A DNA stretch of 9,099 nt. Source: Candidatus Hydrogenedentes bacterium CG07_land_8_20_14_0_80_42_17. GTDB lineage: Bacteria > UBA8481. Under the pieces are notes generated by a model that saw only the letters and a program-made list of their open reading frames with translations, was not told the origin of the DNA and ran no database searches. Shown here one piece after another: positions 1 through 9,099 of this stretch (its first letter is position 1; each line of letters opens with the position of its first letter). The stretch is taken from contig PEWQ01000189.1 in NCBI GenBank assembly GCA_002780065.1, positions 1-9,099 of the forward strand, given 5' to 3'. The position numbers and the translations under genes are program-made.

Positions 1-120
1 AAATTGCAAATTGGAAAGTGCAAATTGAAAATTTTATTTTTCCAATTTTCATTTTTCAATAAATTGCAAATTGGAAAGTGCAAATTGAAAATTTTATTTT
101 TCCAATTTTCATTTTTCAAT
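1..120. repeat. Exact 60-bp AT-rich tandem repeat, two units
   Basis: Bases 1-60 and 61-120 are identical at every position, so this is a perfect head-to-tail duplication of a 60-bp AT-rich unit. The array is cut by the window edge and may continue to the left. Each unit contains a 10-bp perfect inverted repeat, AAATTGGAAA at unit positions 8-17 against TTTCCAATTT at 39-48, enclosing a smaller AAATT/AATTT dyad. It also has three AAATTG words, at unit positions 1, 8 and 22. No reading frame of interest crosses it. Unit identity suggests recent duplication or ongoing homogenisation. An assembly artefact at a contig end is the main alternative explanation. Confidence 0.93.
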
Positions 121-175: not shown

Positions 176-225
176 CAAGTAAACACTTTTTGGACAGCCC
201 CGGCTACCGTTCGAATGCGTCGCTT

Positions 226-281
226 GCACGTGCGGGGGCGTCCATTGACGCGTAGCGCCCATTGACGCGTAGCGCACGTGC
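226..281 (+). repeat. GC-rich palindromic element, copy 1 (expanded)
   Basis: The element starts and ends with the self-complementary octamer GCACGTGC (226-233 and 274-281). It is markedly GC-rich against an AT-rich surround. Its plus strand matches the reverse complement of 6242-6280 at 37 of 39 positions once an extra 17-bp unit is removed. The CCTCC following the right-hand octamer is shared as well. The inner GCGTC/GACGC words can form the apical stem of a hairpin. It is most likely a REP/MITE-like dispersed palindrome. A protein-binding site is possible, and nothing here shows which. Confidence 0.85.
242..275 (+). repeat. 17-bp tandem duplication inside copy 1
   Basis: The unit CCATTGACGCGTAGCGC occurs at 242-258 and again, perfectly, at 259-275. 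The second copy of this element (6242-6280, opposite strand) has one unit only. The duplication is therefore specific to this copy and probably arose by replication slippage or hairpin-associated repair. Confidence 0.92.
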
Positions 282-348
282 CTCCTGCTCTTCTTATAAT
301 CATCGGAGTAATTGTTATTCTAATAGCAATGGTCAAAATTTAACTTAA

Positions 349-1689
349 TCACGCATCGCACTTCAAAGGTGTTGAATCAATTCCATAACTGTTCCAGCTC
401 TCTGCAAATTCAGCCGGGTCGGATATTTCATCAAGCAGACGCTGAGCAAGCTCGGCTGAAGTTATTTTACTCTCCGCTCTTTCTCTCAGCTTTTCCAAAC
501 TGCCATCGCAAACACATGATTTCTTTGCAATATTCAAAAGGTCGTCAGCCCAATCTGCAATGCTTCTTCCTCCTGCTTTGCCTTTCAATCCAAATTGAAT
601 CGCCGCTTCTCTCATTCTAAAAAAATCTTCGCGAGATATTTTCCCTAGAAGCTCAAATATTTCATCCAAGTTTCCGTAGATAAGCGAACTCCAAAAACAT
701 GGCACAGTGGGCAATAGAGCCGGCTGGAGCGAATCCGCTGATCTTATTTCAATAAAGCGTTTGAGCCTCACCTCTGGAAATGCCTGAGTCATCGCAAGCT
801 CGACATCATAAAAAGTAATTTTCTTCTTTTGCATTAGGCTTCTCAAAGATACTCCGTCAGACTCATAATAATTTCCATTCTTCTCTATAAACATTAACGG
901 CATATCGAGAAGCCAATCAACATATTCCATGATGTCTGAATTCGCCTTCAGCATAAAATCTGGAATGTTGCATCGGGCGTTATCAGTTTGAGTCCATATA
1001 CTAGCTCGGTAATCCAAAACCGGCAGAGTCTTCCCTCCGCCAATACCTGACGAAGCGAAAAGCGCCTGAGCAATAGGCGTGACCAACGATGCAGCGCGGA
1101 GTTTTTTCATCGCGTCATTCGCGTTCTTATAATCGAGCGCAACCTGACAGCCTGCCGTCATCTTCATCATTTCAAGAGCAAGCGCTCCTTTTTTTTTCAA
1201 ATACGGCGCCATGAATGAATAACGTTTTTTCGGAACAAAAGAGATTTCGTCTAACTTTGAAAACGGATGAAATCCAATTCCAAGAAAAACTATTCCATGA
1301 AATTCTGCGGCGCGGTCGAGTTCGTTTACAGCTTTTCTTGCAGACTTCATAAGTTCTTTTACAGTGCGAGCCGGCGCCGACGAATATTCAGTCTGCCCGC
1401 CTGGTTCCAGAGTAATCGACTCTCCATCACGTTCGAGATAGACAATTCTTCCGTTCTCCAATCCCCTCTTCCATCCGCTCTGTTCTGCCATTGTATCGAG
1501 AACCTTTTCAACTCCGTTATCAAATGGAATCGCTCTGCATGTATCGCGATAAACTCCTAATCTCTCATACTCGATTCCAAAAAGCCGTTCTTCATTGGGT
1601 TTGGAAAATCTTTCAATATACTCGGCAATATCCGAAGGGGAATTAACAATCTCATTCAGTTCTTCACCCCCAGCTATTTTTGTCGTCAT
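349..1689 (-). CDS. gshA: Glutamate-cysteine ligase, plant/proteobacterial type
   Basis: This enzyme probably catalyses the ATP-dependent joining of L-glutamate to L-cysteine to form gamma-glutamylcysteine in the cytoplasm, the first step of glutathione synthesis. The 446-residue protein has the full GCS2-family motif series. These are GIEYE (38-42), LEPGGQTEYSSAP (94-106, normally LEPGGQ.ELS.AP), FLGIGFHP (135-142), PKKRYSFM (153-160), GCQVALD (180-186), R..IWTQTDNAR (228-239) and FPEVRLKRFIEIRSAD (304-319). The length suits the plant-type class, and it lacks the layout of E. coli GshA. The start is supported by a GAGGTG Shine-Dalgarno five bases upstream and by the 4-bp ATGA overlap with the preceding ABC gene. 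No gshB lies in the window. EgtA or another gamma-glutamyl ligase is a possible alternative, but overall motif similarity favours glutamate-cysteine ligase. Confidence 0.88.
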   Translation of the reverse strand: MTTKIAGGEELNEIVNSPSDIAEYIERFSKPNEERLFGIEYERLGVYRDTCRAIPFDNGVEKVLDTMAEQSGWKRGLENGRIVYLERDGESITLEPGGQTEYSSAPARTVKELMKSARKAVNELDRAAEFHGIVFLGIGFHPFSKLDEISFVPKKRYSFMAPYLKKKGALALEMMKMTAGCQVALDYKNANDAMKKLRAASLVTPIAQALFASSGIGGGKTLPVLDYRASIWTQTDNARCNIPDFMLKANSDIMEYVDWLLDMPLMFIEKNGNYYESDGVSLRSLMQKKKITFYDVELAMTQAFPEVRLKRFIEIRSADSLQPALLPTVPCFWSSLIYGNLDEIFELLGKISREDFFRMREAAIQFGLKGKAGGRSIADWADDLLNIAKKSCVCDGSLEKLRERAESKITSAELAQRLLDEISDPAEFAESWNSYGIDSTPLKCDA

Positions 1690-3509
1690 GGTTCCACCTC
1701 AAATTCAAGCGCAGATTTTTCGTCTTCCAAAATTTCATTCTCTAAAACTTCATTCTGCTCGCTCTTCGTTTTTAAACTGCCTGTCATCTTTATGAGATTA
1801 TACAATCGAGCATACAAGCCGTCTCTCGCAATTAATTCTGCATGAGTTCCTTCTTCAACAATCTTGCCGTTGTCGAGTACTCCGATCCGATCTGCGCCTT
1901 CCAGCGTAGATATTCTATGAGCAATAATTATTGCCGAACGATTTGACAAGGCTTTATTCATTGCTCTGCGCACTTTTGCATCGGAGATAGGATCGAGAGC
2001 TGAAGTTGCTTCATCAAGAATAACCATTCCAGGATTGCGAGCAAGAAGCCGCACAATTGAAATTAATTGTTTCTCCCCTTCTGATAATCTTCTTCCCCAT
2101 TCCCCTACTGCGGTAGAGTCTTCCAGCTTCCTAGCCGTATCCAAAAGTCCAACAGCAGAGAGCAGTTTTGTAAGCTCTTCATCAGAAAGTTCCAGCCCCA
2201 TCGCCACATTTTCTTTCAGAGAAGTATCAAAAAGAAAAACCTCTTGAGGAAGAAGCAAAAAGGCAGAGCGTCTCGATGCGAATGAGAAAGAATCCAGTTC
2301 CACTCCGTTCCAGCAAATTGAGCCCGACGACTGTCTGTAAAAACCGGCAAGGATTCTAGCGAGAGTTGATTTTCCTCCGCCACTCATTCCAATAAGCGCA
2401 AGATGAGTTCCTTTCGGTAGATTCAAATCAACTCCTCTCAATACTTTTTGGCCGGTTTTATATTCGAATTCGAGTCTGAAAATTTCAAGTCTTCCTTCTT
2501 TTTCGTTCAGGCTCTTCCTATTTAGTGTTGCGTCTTCCTCCGACGAAATGCCGAGAAAATTATCGACGCGTTCGAGCGCCACAAAAGCCTGCTGAAATGT
2601 TGCGAACCGAGTTGATAAACCTCTAAGCGGAACGAAGAACTGCTGAATGTACTGCGCCATAGCAATGATAGTTCCGGCTGTGACTATCTCTCCATCCGAA
2701 ACAGCGCTTCCCAGAATCACAAATGCAACTGCTAAACCGCCAAAGAAATCGATACCGGAATAAAATGCAGATTCGAATTTATTCATCTCAAGCGAAGTCG
2801 TTTCGTATTCACCATTAATAGTTTCAAACCTTGCGTTGAAATAAGGCCGAGCCGCAAGAATTTCTATAGCTTCATGACCTGAAAAACTTTCCTGCGCAAA
2901 TCCGTTCATCATCGCAGTAAGTCTTCTCATCTCTCGAGTTAAAATCCTCATTCGCCTTCCAATTTCTAAAGTAGAAAAAAACATAACAGGTATTACGCAC
3001 AACCCCCAAATCCCTAATTTTGGCGAAAGCATAATCATAGCTGCTCCAATAGCTACGGCTGTAAAAACATCCCAAATCAGCATAACTCCGCCGGACGCGA
3101 AAGCCTGATCTATGCTCTCTAAATCAGTAGTCAAACGCGAAACAATTCTACCTCTGGATTCATGCCTAAAAAATTCCAACGGCAAGCTCATCATATGTTC
3201 GAAAAGTTCGTTCCTCAGCGACTTCACAACCCGCAGTCCGATATCTCTTAACAAAAATTGAAATACAGCCTGTATCATCATATTGAGAAGAACTATTCCT
3301 GAAAAAAGCAAAATCATTTTCATTAAGTCTGCGATATTTCCCGACATAATATGTGAATCAACAATATCCCGAAGCATTCGCGGTAATAAAAGAGGAAGTG
3401 AAACCGAGAGCGGCAACAGCAAAATGCAGAGAATATAATTTTTCTTTTCCTTTGCAGCGTGAGGAATTATTCGTCTTATTGAAGAGCGCGATAGAAATTT
3501 ATTCATCAT
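1686..3509 (-). CDS. ABC exporter half-subunit, catalytic-Glu partner (MdlB/BmrD-like)
   Basis: This is a fused membrane and ATPase subunit of a type IV ABC exporter, expected in the inner membrane. Residues 1-300 hold about six hydrophobic segments, the clearest near 24-45, 63-88, 140-180 and 252-295. The ATPase domain follows. It has A-loop Tyr350, Walker A GMSGGGKST (374-382), Q-loop Gln422, signature LSEGE (475-479), Walker B VILDE with Glu500, and H-loop His531. LSEGE departs from LSGGQ, while the catalytic Glu is intact. The partner encoded just upstream has the opposite pattern, which points to a heterodimer. The C terminus from about residue 580 is an acidic, Glu-rich tail. It starts ATGATG within the stop of the upstream gene (ATGA overlap) and ends in an ATGA overlap with the ligase gene. 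The substrate cannot be read from the sequence. Confidence 0.9.
   Translation of the reverse strand: MMNKFLSRSSIRRIIPHAAKEKKNYILCILLLPLSVSLPLLLPRMLRDIVDSHIMSGNIADLMKMILLFSGIVLLNMMIQAVFQFLLRDIGLRVVKSLRNELFEHMMSLPLEFFRHESRGRIVSRLTTDLESIDQAFASGGVMLIWDVFTAVAIGAAMIMLSPKLGIWGLCVIPVMFFSTLEIGRRMRILTREMRRLTAMMNGFAQESFSGHEAIEILAARPYFNARFETINGEYETTSLEMNKFESAFYSGIDFFGGLAVAFVILGSAVSDGEIVTAGTIIAMAQYIQQFFVPLRGLSTRFATFQQAFVALERVDNFLGISSEEDATLNRKSLNEKEGRLEIFRLEFEYKTGQKVLRGVDLNLPKGTHLALIGMSGGGKSTLARILAGFYRQSSGSICWNGVELDSFSFASRRSAFLLLPQEVFLFDTSLKENVAMGLELSDEELTKLLSAVGLLDTARKLEDSTAVGEWGRRLSEGEKQLISIVRLLARNPGMVILDEATSALDPISDAKVRRAMNKALSNRSAIIIAHRISTLEGADRIGVLDNGKIVEEGTHAELIARDGLYARLYNLIKMTGSLKTKSEQNEVLENEILEDEKSALEFEVEP
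1695..1700 (-). promoter_or_regulatory. Shine-Dalgarno site for the glutamate-cysteine ligase gene
   Basis: GAGGTG on the minus strand lies five bases before the ATG at 1689. It is complementary to the 16S rRNA 3' end. It sits inside the last codons of the upstream ABC gene, so the ligase has its own ribosome site as well as an ATGA overlap. It is the clearest such site among the starts visible here. Confidence 0.7.
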
Positions 3510-5278
3510 TCAATGCCGCTTCTGTATCGAATATGCAGTTTCTCGGCTTCTAAAGACTCTCTAAGCCATTTTGAAGCCGATAAAACGGATTCCAAATTTC
3601 CGTCAGCTACGATTCTTCCTTTATCAACAACAACTATTCTGTCCATTCGTTCCAAAAGAAGCATGCGGTGAGTAATAAAAATTGTAGTTTGTTTTTTTCT
3701 TCTGAGATAAATTCCGTCAAGAATCTTTAATTCCGAATCGATGTCAACTGCTGAGATTACGTCATCGAGAATCAATATTTTAGGTTCCGACAAAAATGCT
3801 CTAGCAAGAGCTAATCGCTGTCTCTGACCGCCGGAAAGCAATAATCCTCTTTCGCCTATACGCGTCTTCAATCCTTCAGGCGTCGTCCGAATTTCATCTA
3901 TAAGAGCGGCTTCATGCAGAGCACTATAGAGTTTTTCTTCGTCGTATTTCTCGCAAGCCAGACTTAGATTTTCCTCAATCGACATTGAAAACAAAACCGG
4001 GTTTTGCGAAACGAGATGAACATATTTTTTCTTTTCGGAAACCGGCATATTTAAAATTTCAGTTCCATAAAGCTTCAGGCTTCCTGAAGAAGGCGTTCTC
4101 AAACCTGAAATCAATCTTGCCAGCGTAGTTTTGCCCGACGCGGTCGATCCCACGACCGCAATCCATTCGCCTTCGGTAATACTGAGTGAAATATCTTTCA
4201 GCGTATTTTCTGAGCGTGTCGGATATCGAAATGAAATATCTTTCAACTGAATTGCAAATTTATTATCAGCAGATGATTCTGAATCACCTAAACAAATTTC
4301 ATCTTGCGGTGCCTCATAATTTCTTCCGCAAAACGGCTGAAGTCTGATTGCCGCGGCTTTTCCGCGCTGAATTACATTTACAATCCAACCCAATGCAACC
4401 GTAGGCCAAACAAGTTTTGCAAACAGGAAAATAAATGTTGTTAAATCTGCTACACTAATTTTCTGCGGATAAATTCTATATGTGATACCCGCCGCAATTA
4501 AAATTGCAATTATTCCAATCCAGATGATTCCGCTCATCATGCCGATAAATCCTGATTCAGGGCGAGCTCTGTTCCGTTCAGACTCGTAATATCCAAAATT
4601 CAATTCCTTGAACCGACCGGTCTGCCATTTTTCCGAAATATGTGATTTCAAAACTTCTATGCCGGCGACGCTCTCCTCAACAATTGAAGAGAGGGTTCCC
4701 AATGCTTTTTGAGCAAGCACTGACCTATCATGCATCTTTGCCGTAAAAAATCGCGCGAGCATAAAAACCGGAATAAACGGAAGAAGCGCTGATACAGCCA
4801 ATTGGGGCGAAATCATCAGCATAACCGTAATCGTCATTGCATAAGCGATTATGTTGTTTGTCACTTGAAGGAAGCCTGAACCTAATACCATTCTTATATC
4901 TGAAACGTCGTTGATCAATCTCGAAACTAAATCGCCTGTGCGGTATGTATCCATTTCATCTTGACTAAGTTTTAGAATATTCCGATAAATTTTTCCTCTC
5001 ATCATACGCTCTATTTTTCGGCCGGAAAAAAAAGTTACGATTCTGCTTCCCCATCTTAAAAGAAAAATCAAAAGAGAAATCAGCATCAATTCGAAAGCCA
5101 TTCTAATTTCAACTCGGCCGCATGCCGCATCCTCTACGGCAATAGAGGTCATTCTTACCCAAATTATCTCCACTGCATTGACGATAGCTATCAAGAGAAA
5201 AGAGACTAAGTATGATTTCCATGACGGCTTAACAAGATCAAAAAAGAACTTATCTGATTGCCGTAATTGATTGTTCAC
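3506..5278 (-). CDS. ABC exporter half-subunit, degenerate-site partner (MdlA/BmrC-like)
   Basis: This is a 590-residue ABC exporter subunit, close to the length of MdlA-type proteins. The membrane domain (about 20-305) has clear hydrophobic segments near 22-42, 62-84, 137-178 and 246-298. The ATPase domain has A-loop Tyr352, Walker A GSTASGKTT (377-385), Q-loop Gln425, a perfect LSGGQ (481-485), Walker B ILILDD (501-506) and H-loop His537. Asp506 replaces the catalytic Glu, as in the degenerate half of heterodimeric exporters such as TM287/288. It should pair with the 607-residue subunit encoded next. The start is GTG, 10 nt after the dapF stop, with no strong Shine-Dalgarno, so expression may rely on coupling. 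No later start would keep the first membrane segment. The substrate is unknown, with drugs, lipids or peptides among the family possibilities. Confidence 0.9.
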   Translation of the reverse strand: MNNQLRQSDKFFFDLVKPSWKSYLVSFLLIAIVNAVEIIWVRMTSIAVEDAACGRVEIRMAFELMLISLLIFLLRWGSRIVTFFSGRKIERMMRGKIYRNILKLSQDEMDTYRTGDLVSRLINDVSDIRMVLGSGFLQVTNNIIAYAMTITVMLMISPQLAVSALLPFIPVFMLARFFTAKMHDRSVLAQKALGTLSSIVEESVAGIEVLKSHISEKWQTGRFKELNFGYYESERNRARPESGFIGMMSGIIWIGIIAILIAAGITYRIYPQKISVADLTTFIFLFAKLVWPTVALGWIVNVIQRGKAAAIRLQPFCGRNYEAPQDEICLGDSESSADNKFAIQLKDISFRYPTRSENTLKDISLSITEGEWIAVVGSTASGKTTLARLISGLRTPSSGSLKLYGTEILNMPVSEKKKYVHLVSQNPVLFSMSIEENLSLACEKYDEEKLYSALHEAALIDEIRTTPEGLKTRIGERGLLLSGGQRQRLALARAFLSEPKILILDDVISAVDIDSELKILDGIYLRRKKQTTIFITHRMLLLERMDRIVVVDKGRIVADGNLESVLSASKWLRESLEAEKLHIRYRSGIE

Positions 5279-5288
5279 TTCAAATTCT

Positions 5289-6161
5289 TTACTGTCTAAG
5301 ATTTTTCAAAAGTTGCTGCAGATCGAATTCTCCCTCAAATACATGAGTAGCCGGTCCCGTCATCAAAACTCGATTCTCTTCAGTAAGCTCGACGCGAAGT
5401 ATTCCGCCGCGAAGCTCGATCTCCACACTGCGCCCGCATAATCTGTTAAGATTCGCCGCAACAAGAACAGCGCATGCTCCACTTCCGCATGCCATTGTCT
5501 CCCCCGAGCCGCGCTCCCATGTTCTCTGTCGCAGTCTATCTTTGGAAATGACTTCCACAAATTCTATGTTTGCCCTTTCCGGAAATACCTGATGATTTTC
5601 AAGACCAGGCCCGACAGTCTCCATATCTAAGCTGTCTATTCCATTCATGAATATCACCGCATGCGGATTTCCCATCGATACGCAAGTCACTCGCCATGTC
5701 TTTTCATTTACGGTTATCGGATTATCAATGATCGGTTCATTTTCGCCTTTTGGAGATTTCAAGAGCGTCGGAATTTCATTAGGGCGCAATCTTGGATTGC
5801 CCATGTCGACTCGGACTTTTATAGCTTTGCCTTTCGACTCCTCAGCAATCTCGACTCCGACAATTCCGCTTTTCGTTTCGATGCTGGATTTCTTTCCTAT
5901 TCTTCCATTGTCAAAGAGATATTTTGCAATGCATCTGACTCCATTCCCGCACATTGCGCCTTCAGAACCGTCCGCATTATACATTATCATCCTGCCGCCT
6001 GCTTTCTCAGACGGCGCAATAAGAATGATTCCATCGCCGCCTATTCCAAAATGTCGGTCTGAAACAATTTTTGCCAGAAGCGAAGGCTCTTCAACTTTTT
6101 CGGTCGCGAGATCGATATAAATATAATCGTTGCCCGCTCCATGCATTTTATGAAATTTCAT
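5289..6161 (-). CDS. dapF: Diaminopimelate epimerase
   Basis: The enzyme interconverts LL- and meso-diaminopimelate in the cytoplasm, supplying lysine and peptidoglycan precursors without a cofactor. The N terminus MKFHKMHGAGNDYIYID is the classic DapF opening, which fixes the start. Both active-site cysteines are present: Cys71 in AMCGNG (69-74) and Cys225 in ACGSGAC (224-230). FGIGGDG (38-44), VSMGNPHAV (161-169), ERANIEFV (195-202) and TWERGSGET (214-222) complete the family pattern. At 290 residues it is slightly longer than the roughly 275 of E. coli DapF. It is the first gene of the cluster and is followed after 10 nt by an ABC exporter gene. No Shine-Dalgarno precedes the ATG. Confidence 0.97.
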   Translation of the reverse strand: MKFHKMHGAGNDYIYIDLATEKVEEPSLLAKIVSDRHFGIGGDGIILIAPSEKAGGRMIMYNADGSEGAMCGNGVRCIAKYLFDNGRIGKKSSIETKSGIVGVEIAEESKGKAIKVRVDMGNPRLRPNEIPTLLKSPKGENEPIIDNPITVNEKTWRVTCVSMGNPHAVIFMNGIDSLDMETVGPGLENHQVFPERANIEFVEVISKDRLRQRTWERGSGETMACGSGACAVLVAANLNRLCGRSVEIELRGGILRVELTEENRVLMTGPATHVFEGEFDLQQLLKNLRQ

Positions 6162-6170
6162 AGAGTAAAG

Positions 6171-6198
6171 TTTATCAGATTTTTTAGACTCTATTCAA
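6171..6198 (-). promoter_or_regulatory. Weak candidate promoter for dapF
   Basis: Minus-strand TTGAAT (6193-6198) and GATAAA (6171-6176) are 16 bp apart and resemble a sigma-70 -35/-10 pair. The -10-like box ends nine bases before the dapF ATG. A transcript from here would therefore have little or no leader, which would fit the lack of a Shine-Dalgarno. The sequence is AT-rich, so chance matches are likely. Another -10-like word, TAATAA (6199-6204), has no good -35. Confidence 0.25.
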
Positions 6199-6241
6199 TT
6201 ATTAGTACTGCTCAAAATTTACCGGCACATTTCATCTGGAG

Positions 6242-6280
6242 GCACGTGCGCTACGCGTCACTGGACGCCCTCGCACGTGC
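6242..6280 (-). repeat. GC-rich palindromic element, copy 2 (unexpanded)
   Basis: This 39-bp element is bounded by GCACGTGC octamers and folds as an interrupted hairpin. A 9-bp outer stem (6242-6250 with 6272-6280) is followed by an asymmetric internal loop (CTAC against CCT). A 5-bp stem GCGTC/GACGC (6255-6259 with 6264-6268) and an ACTG loop complete it. Its reverse complement matches 226-281 at 37 of 39 positions, apart from the extra 17 bp there. It lies 80 bp upstream of the dapF start and 70 bp beyond the ispG stop. No T-run follows, so it is not a standard terminator. Confidence 0.85.
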
Positions 6281-6350
6281 TGGTTAAGCATGCATCGCTT
6301 GCCCACGAGAAGGCGCCTGTGTCTTTACGAAAATCAAAACTCGCTCCACT

Positions 6351-7955
6351 CTATTCACGGCTGTTAATCAAACTTTCCAGTCTGTCGTATGCTTTCTCTA
6401 TCAGCATCGGTCCTTCCACAAATTTCCCGTCGCGATATAAATTTACCGTGCCCTTTCCTCCACCGACTAGCCCAAAATCAGCATCTGCCATCTCGCCAGG
6501 CCCGTTCACGATGCACCCCATAACAGCAATCTTAACATTCTTTAAATGCGAAAATCTTTTTTTTACCTCTTGCACAACTTCGGGAAGATTGAAAAGCGTT
6601 CTTCCGCACGATGGACATGCAATGATCTCGGCTCGCGAAATCCTAGTCAGAGAATTCTGTAAAATTGAAATAGCAAGTTCGTGTCTCACTTCATCAGAAG
6701 ACTCTCCTCGTATCTCTATCGCGTCTCCAATCCCTTCTATTAGCGGCGCCCCCAGCGCAACGCTTGAACAGAGTTCTATGTCTCCTCGCCTCTTATGTTC
6801 ATAAGTTAATATGAGCGGCAGGTCTAAAATTAATGAAGAAACTTTTCTGACAAATGAAATGCTCTTATCAGGTTTAGTTAAAATTGTTCTGACCGCTTTG
6901 TATTCGGCAATATTTAATTTCGAAACTGAAATCGGTTCATCATCTCTCAATGTCAGTATTTCCGAATCACCGTCTGCAGAGAATTCAATCGGTATCTCCG
7001 CGCCAAAAGCTCCGACGTTTTCGCCGGCAATTCTTACCGGATTGTTTCCTCCAATATTTTTGAACTCACGACTTTTTCTTTTGCCTTTAATTTCGCCGCA
7101 AACTTTTTTTTCATAATCCCTGTACTCGAAAATATCAACAAGCTCACGCGCAACAGGAATTTCATTCTCAGGCGGTTCCGCTAAAGAGACTCGAATCGTG
7201 TCTCCAACACCATCAGCTAGCAGAGCTCCAATTCCTACAGCCGACCGTATTCTGCCATCCTCGCCTTCGCCCGCTTCAGTGACTCCGAGATGTAGAGGAC
7301 AATCAAATCCCTCTTTGTTCATTGCATTGACAAGCATTCTCACAGACTGAACCATTACTCTTGGATTGGACGATTTCATCGAGACAACAATATCTTGAAA
7401 ATCAAGTTCATGCGCAATGCGCAGATATTCCATCGCGGATTCAACCATTCCTAAAGGTGTGTTTCCGAAGCGGGATAAAATTCTTTCAGAGAGAGAGCCG
7501 TGATTTACTCCGATCCTCAATGCTGTTTTGCGTCTCTTCAAAATGTCAATCAGAGGAGAAAATTTTTTTCGAATTCTTTGTAAAGCTTTTTCCGGTTCTT
7601 CATCTGTAACTTTTTCTGAGCATCTTGAATCGGCAAAGTTTCCAGGATTGATTCTCACCTTCTCAACATGCAGAGCCGCTTCCATTGCCGCTTGAGGCAT
7701 GAAATGAATGTCGGCTGAAATAGGAAGATCGATGCCTTCCTCCAATAATCTGGATTTAATGTTTTTCAGAGCCGACGCATCTGCAACACGCGGAGTAGAT
7801 ATTCTTATCAATTCGCATCCTGCATTGTAAAGCCGCCTGCACTCCTCTACTGAGCCTTCTACATCTGTTGCAGGCAATGTCGTCATCGACTGAATTCGTA
7901 TCGGATTAGAGCCTCCGATCCCAAGAGATCCTACTTCACGGCTTTTTCTTCTCAT
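6351..7955 (-). CDS. ispG: 4-hydroxy-3-methylbut-2-enyl diphosphate synthase, long form
   Basis: IspG (GcpE) reductively converts methylerythritol cyclodiphosphate to HMBPP, the penultimate step of the MEP isoprenoid pathway, using a [4Fe-4S] cluster. The N-terminal TIM barrel shows IGGSNPIRIQSMTT (13-26), SADIHFMP (80-87), VRINPGNFAD (100-109) and LHLGVTEAGEGEDG (221-234). The C-terminal cluster domain has CPSCGRT (Cys447, Cys450), then GCIVNGPGEMADAD with Cys481 and Glu488. Between them, about 285-440, is an extra domain absent from the roughly 370-residue E. coli enzyme. At 534 residues this is the three-domain form, on the short side for that class. The ATG shares its A with the TAA of the upstream protease gene (TAATG), which implies coupling. 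The rseP-ispG order is common, often behind dxr. Confidence 0.97.
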   Translation of the reverse strand: MRRKSREVGSLGIGGSNPIRIQSMTTLPATDVEGSVEECRRLYNAGCELIRISTPRVADASALKNIKSRLLEEGIDLPISADIHFMPQAAMEAALHVEKVRINPGNFADSRCSEKVTDEEPEKALQRIRKKFSPLIDILKRRKTALRIGVNHGSLSERILSRFGNTPLGMVESAMEYLRIAHELDFQDIVVSMKSSNPRVMVQSVRMLVNAMNKEGFDCPLHLGVTEAGEGEDGRIRSAVGIGALLADGVGDTIRVSLAEPPENEIPVARELVDIFEYRDYEKKVCGEIKGKRKSREFKNIGGNNPVRIAGENVGAFGAEIPIEFSADGDSEILTLRDDEPISVSKLNIAEYKAVRTILTKPDKSISFVRKVSSLILDLPLILTYEHKRRGDIELCSSVALGAPLIEGIGDAIEIRGESSDEVRHELAISILQNSLTRISRAEIIACPSCGRTLFNLPEVVQEVKKRFSHLKNVKIAVMGCIVNGPGEMADADFGLVGGGKGTVNLYRDGKFVEGPMLIEKAYDRLESLINSRE

Positions 7956-9099
7956 TACTTCGATTCTGACTGAACTGCCTCATCAACAGTCTGATATCCG
8001 AACGCGCGGCCGAGATCGTTATAAGTAATGTAAACTATCAAAGCTAAAAGTGCGGCTAAACCTGCCTGCATCATGCGCTCTTGAATCTTCTGCGGAACCG
8101 GCTTCTTTGCAAAAAATTCGTAAAGCAAAAATATAAAGAGCCAGCCTCCGTCCAAAAGCGGAAACGGAATCAAGTTCACCACGCCTAAATTGACAGAGAT
8201 TAAAGCCAGATAATAGACAAGCTGTTTTGCTCCGCCTTCGCGGAAAGAAGAGCCTGACCCCTGAGCAATTCCGACCGGGCCGGCTAATAACTTCACTGAA
8301 AGTTTTCCTGTCACAAGTTTATGCAGAGTCACAAGAATTAATTTTCCCATCTTTACAGTCATGAATCCCGCTGAAACCATCGAATAAGTAAAACCCTTTG
8401 GATCAGGCTTCATGGTCGGTGAAATGCCTATTGCTGGAAAGCTTTCTATAGTTCCGTTACTGCGTTGAGCAAATGAAATCTTCGGAGAGGCAACTGCAAT
8501 ACCGGTCTCACTTCCTCTTTGATACAAAATATTAATTGCCTGAGCTGTATCTCTGACAATAGCGGTATCAGGCCAAAAAAATCTGCAAATCTTTATCGTT
8601 GCCGGTGAATTTAAATCAGACCACCATCGCTCTTTTTTTACAAAACGAATCGGAGGAATCTTAATTGAACGAATGCTCCTCGTTATATCGATCCATTGCA
8701 TAACCGGAGAGTCGTTGATCGCAAGAATTGTATCTCCAACCATCAGTCCCGCTTTTTTTGCCGGACCGTCTTCTTTCATCTCACCGATAACAGGATTCCA
8801 CCACGGAGCAATCTCCAAGGTTCCGCTTCCGAGCAATCTCGCATCGGCTTCAAGTTGGAGTTTAGAGACGTAATCGATGTCATTCGGAATTTCGAAATGT
8901 TTCGGAGTAACAGACAAATTCAATTCTTGAGTATCTCTCCGCACCTTCAGCGCAATGGACTTATTCACCGAAACACTCATGATCTTTTCAAAATCAAACC
9001 ACGTCTGGATCGATTTTCCATTTGCAGATTCGATTACATCTCCGACCTGCAATTCAGTTGCAGGCGTCTTTTCGGCAATAAAACCAACTTTAGCTAGAT
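7955..9099 (-). CDS. rseP: RseP-family site-2 zinc metalloprotease, N terminus missing
   Basis: This is an inner-membrane site-2 protease. In E. coli RseP cleaves anti-sigma factor RseA and remnant signal peptides. The frame stays open to the window edge, reading LAKVGFIAEKTPATELQVGD, so the gene continues beyond it. The TTG at 9052 is inside a PDZ domain and is not the true start. The first zinc motif, HExxH, and the first membrane segment are outside. Visible are PDZ1 (from the edge), PDZ2 (GLMVGDTILAINDSPV), the LAGPVGIAQGSG segment, and NLIPFPLLDGGW carrying the third zinc ligand (Asp of LDG). A terminal membrane helix (GLAALLALIVYITY) follows. The stretch after PDZ2, about 130-205 counting from that TTG, is poorly conserved. 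The stop overlaps the ispG start by one base. Confidence 0.93.
   Translation of the reverse strand, partial: LAKVGFIAEKTPATELQVGDVIESANGKSIQTWFDFEKIMSVSVNKSIALKVRRDTQELNLSVTPKHFEIPNDIDYVSKLQLEADARLLGSGTLEIAPWWNPVIGEMKEDGPAKKAGLMVGDTILAINDSPVMQWIDITRSIRSIKIPPIRFVKKERWWSDLNSPATIKICRFFWPDTAIVRDTAQAINILYQRGSETGIAVASPKISFAQRSNGTIESFPAIGISPTMKPDPKGFTYSMVSAGFMTVKMGKLILVTLHKLVTGKLSVKLLAGPVGIAQGSGSSFREGGAKQLVYYLALISVNLGVVNLIPFPLLDGGWLFIFLLYEFFAKKPVPQKIQERMMQAGLAALLALIVYITYNDLGRAFGYQTVDEAVQSESK

Follow-up and report, generated by a model that had tools for sequence, protein, structure and literature searches.

Dispersed REP/BIME-like palindromic repeats as the probable origin of the inverted copies flanking a dapF-ABC-ABC-gcl cluster

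The two inverted, GC-rich palindromes that flank a dapF-ABC-ABC-gcl cluster belong, with a probability that we put at roughly 0.85, to a lineage-restricted, non-coding family of REP/BIME-like repeats, and their bracketing of the four genes is incidental. The stretch of DNA analysed, 9,099 nucleotides in length and referred to here as the window, is one whole contig (C153) of a 2.39-Mb genome assembled in 207 contigs. The features on which the analysis rests are collected in Table 1; ispG and rseP lie to the right of the dapF-side copy.

Table 1. Repeats and genes located in the window, with positions and strands.
Feature	Position	Strand	Description
AT-rich 60-bp palindromic dispersed repeat	1-120	.	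two exact tandem copies; repeats D1, I1
Linker-like flank AAGCGACGCATTCGAACGGTAGCC...	198-225	-	common to the copy on contig C89, similar to others; flank table
Left copy	226-285	-	GGAG 282-285; 9-bp stem arms 273-281 and 226-234; two 17-bp units; GT/AC subtype
Two tandem 17-bp units of left copy	238-271	-	cores GCGTCAATGGACGC and GCGTCAATGGGCGC; repeat family D4, unit census
gcl/GCS2	349-1689	-	
ABC transporter gene	1686-3509	-	
ABC transporter gene	3506-5278	-	
dapF	5289-6161	-	
Right copy	6238-6280	+	GGAG tag; 9-bp stem arms; one 17-bp unit with core GCGTCACTGGACGC; GT/AC subtype
Linker TGGTTAAGCATGCATCGC and apparent decayed second monomer (GGCGCCTGTG remnant)	6281-6323	+	comparison with intact inverted pairs

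Direct reading of the sequence bore out the resemblance between the two copies that the initial annotation had described. After removal of one 17-bp unit, the reverse complement of 226-281 is identical to 6242-6280 at 37 of 39 positions, and GCACGTGC stands at both the start and the end of each copy. A repeat search of the window found the copies again as the inverted pairs I2 (84% over 44 nt) and I3 (94% over 31 nt). The conserved core is longer by the GGAG tag, with arms at 273-285 on the minus strand and 6238-6250 on the plus strand. The predicted RNA folds were -31.6 kcal/mol for the left copy (shuffles, -23.4) and -23.7 kcal/mol for the right copy (shuffles, -15.7).

We searched the whole genome for parts of the repeat. 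The unit core GCGTCAATGGRCGC had 165 exact matches and its control none, while the 13-base 5′ arm GGAGGCAYRNRCG had 112 against 1 for the reversed control, so that the match between the window copies is far beyond chance. A 120-base query matched 77 places in the same genome. For a closer view we sampled about 743 kb in contigs C101-140 and C161-179, and in addition used selected repeat-bearing contigs. In the sampled contigs and the window together, 752 kb, we counted 40 copies or clusters, equivalent to about 127 for the whole genome; a lower number results when the 91 units called in the sample, by a looser criterion, are compared with the genome's 165 exact cores. Because the two scalings differ, we state the estimate as roughly 90 to 130 copies, mostly intergenic. 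Copy number, structure and placement together support the suggestion that the palindrome is a dispersed REP/MITE-like family. Nearly half of the sampled copies (19/40) have a contig end no more than 300 bp away. This is consistent with repeats breaking the assembly, and the family may account for part of the assembly breaks.

A search of Rfam found no match to the repeat, and the double-unit pattern was absent from two public collections, of genome and of viral contigs, that may omit this genome or very near ones. A search of 386 genomes with the stem pattern of unit-free (n=0) monomers returned 5 sites in the genome studied here and one site elsewhere. The repeat was absent from G001, the sole genome of the same order compared.

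The monomer consists of an unpaired GGAG followed by two complementary 9-base arms, with 0 to 9 of the 17-bp units between them. The main stem types are GCACAGGCG/CGCCTGTGC, GCACGTGCG/CGCACGTGC, and GCACGCACG/CGTGCGTGC; n=0 monomers of about 25 nt, such as GGAGGCATGTGCGCCTCGCACATGC, retain the 9-bp stem. The monomers are short, imperfect palindromes that can form a stem-loop, predicted to fold better, as RNA, than shuffles. The core of the unit, GCGTC-AATG-GACGC, is itself self-complementary, and an array could therefore take the form of a single long rod or of small hairpins in a row; a six-unit array was predicted to form one long rod at -63.7 kcal/mol (shuffles, -51.0). With arms located by their distance from the units, and complementarity not used, the stem arms of 22 copies paired as AG/CT and those of 12 as GT/AC, and a GC/GC type was present too.

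We also asked how far pairing is kept as the stem sequence changes. From 56 rows we took 24 distinct ones, each made up of an arm, one unit and an arm, that had recognisable arms at both ends, a choice that favours paired ends. In these, 94.9% of cells were paired, and double-sided changes numbered 20 versus 8.7 in shuffles. When all 56 rows were taken, broken ends included, 393 of 504 cells were paired against a shuffled mean of 369, a level reached by 6 of 10,000 shuffles. Most of this covariation comes from two or three subfamilies, so that the independent events are few. G-U variants of the unit lean to one strand, with 36 occurrences of GCGTCAATGGGCGC and 1 of GCGCCAATGGACGC. Units resemble their neighbours more than units elsewhere, with a non-consensus identity of 0.24 within arrays versus 0.10 between them (the pairs are not independent), and some variants are specific to one array, as with GCGCCAATGGGTGC, of which a single array holds six copies. 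This modest within-array homogenisation suggests local duplication.

The GGAG repeat shares much with the REPs described by Di Nocera and colleagues, whose GTAG and CGTC families form dimers, are biased toward gene 3′ ends and have complementary stem variants (PMC3733652). In common with REPs and BIMEs it is a short, tagged stem-loop present in more than 100 copies, intergenic and with a preference for 3′ ends; its subfamilies differ by complementary stem changes, its inverted dimers join monomers of differing stems with the tags outward, and it adjoins another palindromic repeat, as some of those families do (PMC3733652). It differs in its tag, which is GGAG and not the GTAG or CGTC of the described superfamilies (PMC3733652), and we therefore place it in neither. 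It differs also in its loop: described REP loops are mostly 2-20 bp with few longer (inner region up to 27 bp) (PMC3733652), whereas here 0 to 9 tandem copies of a self-complementary 17-bp unit add to the length of the loop. A further difference is that no transposase gene among the four Y1 genes of the genome is clearly flanked by the GGAG family. In plan the repeat recalls the BOX element of Streptococcus pneumoniae, boxA-boxB(n)-boxC, in which outer pairing modules enclose a variable tandem, largely self-folding inner module (PMC3049150). Here, likewise, 0 to 9 units stand between complementary arms, but the arm (13 bases) and the unit (17 bp) are far shorter than the BOX modules and the host lineage is unrelated; the likeness is one of plan. 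In a limited literature search we came across no published REP-like repeat whose loop contains a tandem array of self-complementary units. We regard this loop expansion as a modest variant of a known repeat type; judged from its sequence, the GGAG repeat would work like a REP/BIME. It adds to such repeats a lineage-restricted family, found in bacteria that have been sparsely sampled, that combines REP and BOX features and has a loop that grows by tandem self-complementary units.

The copies are most likely non-autonomous REP/BIME-like elements, and we infer that they spread as mobile hairpins. Monomers would probably be copied through single-stranded DNA hairpins by a Y1 transposase acting in trans, arrays may grow in place by slippage or unequal exchange, and copies that are transcribed could have mild effects on mRNA 3′ ends. 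Growth by slippage is suggested by the varying unit number together with the array-specific variants, with modest statistical support. Neither an empty site nor a target duplication was seen in the comparison with the one same-order relative. We looked for a cognate RAYT and found no clearly cognate candidate among the four Y1 genes. Those at L031 and L033 have unrelated inverted repeats of their own, and the one at L034 has no GGAG-family copy nearby. At L032 one n=0 copy lies about 130 bp upstream of the gene, inside which the contig ends; with about 8% of wide gaps occupied (see below), one such neighbour is not unexpected. The Y1 genes at L031, L033 and L034 include some with inverted repeats of their own (GGGGTCAGGCTTGAAC..., and an ATAACTATATAACTATA type) and one that contains internal GTAG-tagged hairpins (GGACAGGGCACCGCCCTGTCC), which points to other REP-like families in the genome.

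It had been noted that the pair brackets exactly the four-gene cluster, and had been proposed that the cluster might be a mobilised or invertible cassette with the two copies as its ends. Within the window the pair does bracket the cluster, and the inverted orientation, the close match and the position of the cluster exactly between the copies all lend the cassette some appeal. The two gaps concerned are, however, the only wide intergenic gaps in the window, so bracketing needs no special explanation, and with the left gap also adjoining a contig end made of repeats, two flanking copies are unremarkable. Copies are, moreover, dispersed over the genome, where 16 of the 197 interior gaps that are wide (about 8%) contain one; the window has no recombinase or transposase gene. 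In G001, where dapF was recognised by reading the sequence and gcl by search, the two genes are neighbours (L205, open reading frames 6163-7071 and 7232-8593), and among the matches found neither the ABC pair nor the repeat lies between or beside them. In the cassette's favour, ispG lies elsewhere in G001 and is followed there by a kinase-like gene, not by dapF. The repeat-free adjacency of dapF and gcl in G001 speaks against a cassette whose limits the repeats would set, though in so distant a relative, with a different ispG-dapF junction, it leaves room for other rearrangement. We consider the cassette, tempting as the claim is, very unlikely. Very unlikely too is a shared protein-binding palindrome at the operon ends. 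The perfect GCACGTGC palindromes at the ends of both window copies could be read in that way, but most copies in the genome are of the AG/CT subtype and lack GCACGTGC, and a fixed binding site is hard to reconcile with a stem whose sequence varies while its pairing persists.

A role at mRNA ends, the remaining suggestion, is possible, and we examined where the copies lie relative to genes. Of 40 sampled copies, 32 overlapped mechanically called open reading frames by less than 25%, and the other 8 overlapped open reading frames unconfirmed as genes. Flanking genes faced the copies with 41 3′ ends and 20 5′ ends, compared with 154 and 208 in copy-free gaps (P 0.00046), and the preference held for interior copies alone (27 3′ ends and 15 5′ ends, P 0.009). 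This preference, the stable folds, the covarying stems and the one-strand lean of the G-U variants would all suit an RNA structure with a function at the ends of genes, a stabiliser or attenuator selected site by site and not mainly spreading. Against such a structure, a terminator scan found no poly-T terminator site at the copies, the two window copies are unlike in their orientation to transcription, the great majority of wide gaps are empty, and the repeat is absent from the relative G001; REP families, too, are generally placed in the same manner without proven need (PMC3733652). We therefore think this account unlikely. Since the length of the hairpin rod varies with unit number, array length at gene 3′ ends could conceivably be a heritable dial, turned by slippage, that sets the stability or attenuation of transcripts, an idea that we consider rather doubtful.

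Copies also occur in compound forms. In inverted dimers (e.g. L061, L088, L091, and L108) an AG/CT monomer is joined, tags outward, to a GT/AC or GC/GC monomer through a linker like TTGCGACGCATGCTTATCCA. By comparison with such intact pairs, the sequence 3′ of the right window copy looks like a decayed partner monomer. At L108:4271-4410 (both strands) whole 5′ arms are tandemly repeated in addition to the 17-bp units, a second mode of expansion.

Other repeated sequences were found close to the family. The window contig starts inside two copies of the AT-rich repeat, which has 113 copies in the genome when up to 3 mismatches are allowed, most of them exact, and is absent from G001. Its 30-base core is identical in most copies, suggesting recent spread, and 37 of 56 sampled copies lie within 120 bp of the GC-rich family. 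Window positions 288-362, which hold the gcl flank with the last four codons and stop, are matched perfectly over 75 bp by G000:C97:14297-14371 (L105) on another contig, at the 3′ end of an unrelated gene for a membrane protein; either a genuine duplication of a fragment or a chimera in the assembly may be the cause. At L095, a separate short tandem repeat (ACGGCACAATGGTGTCA) lies at about 15860-15930 beside a copy of the GC-rich family.
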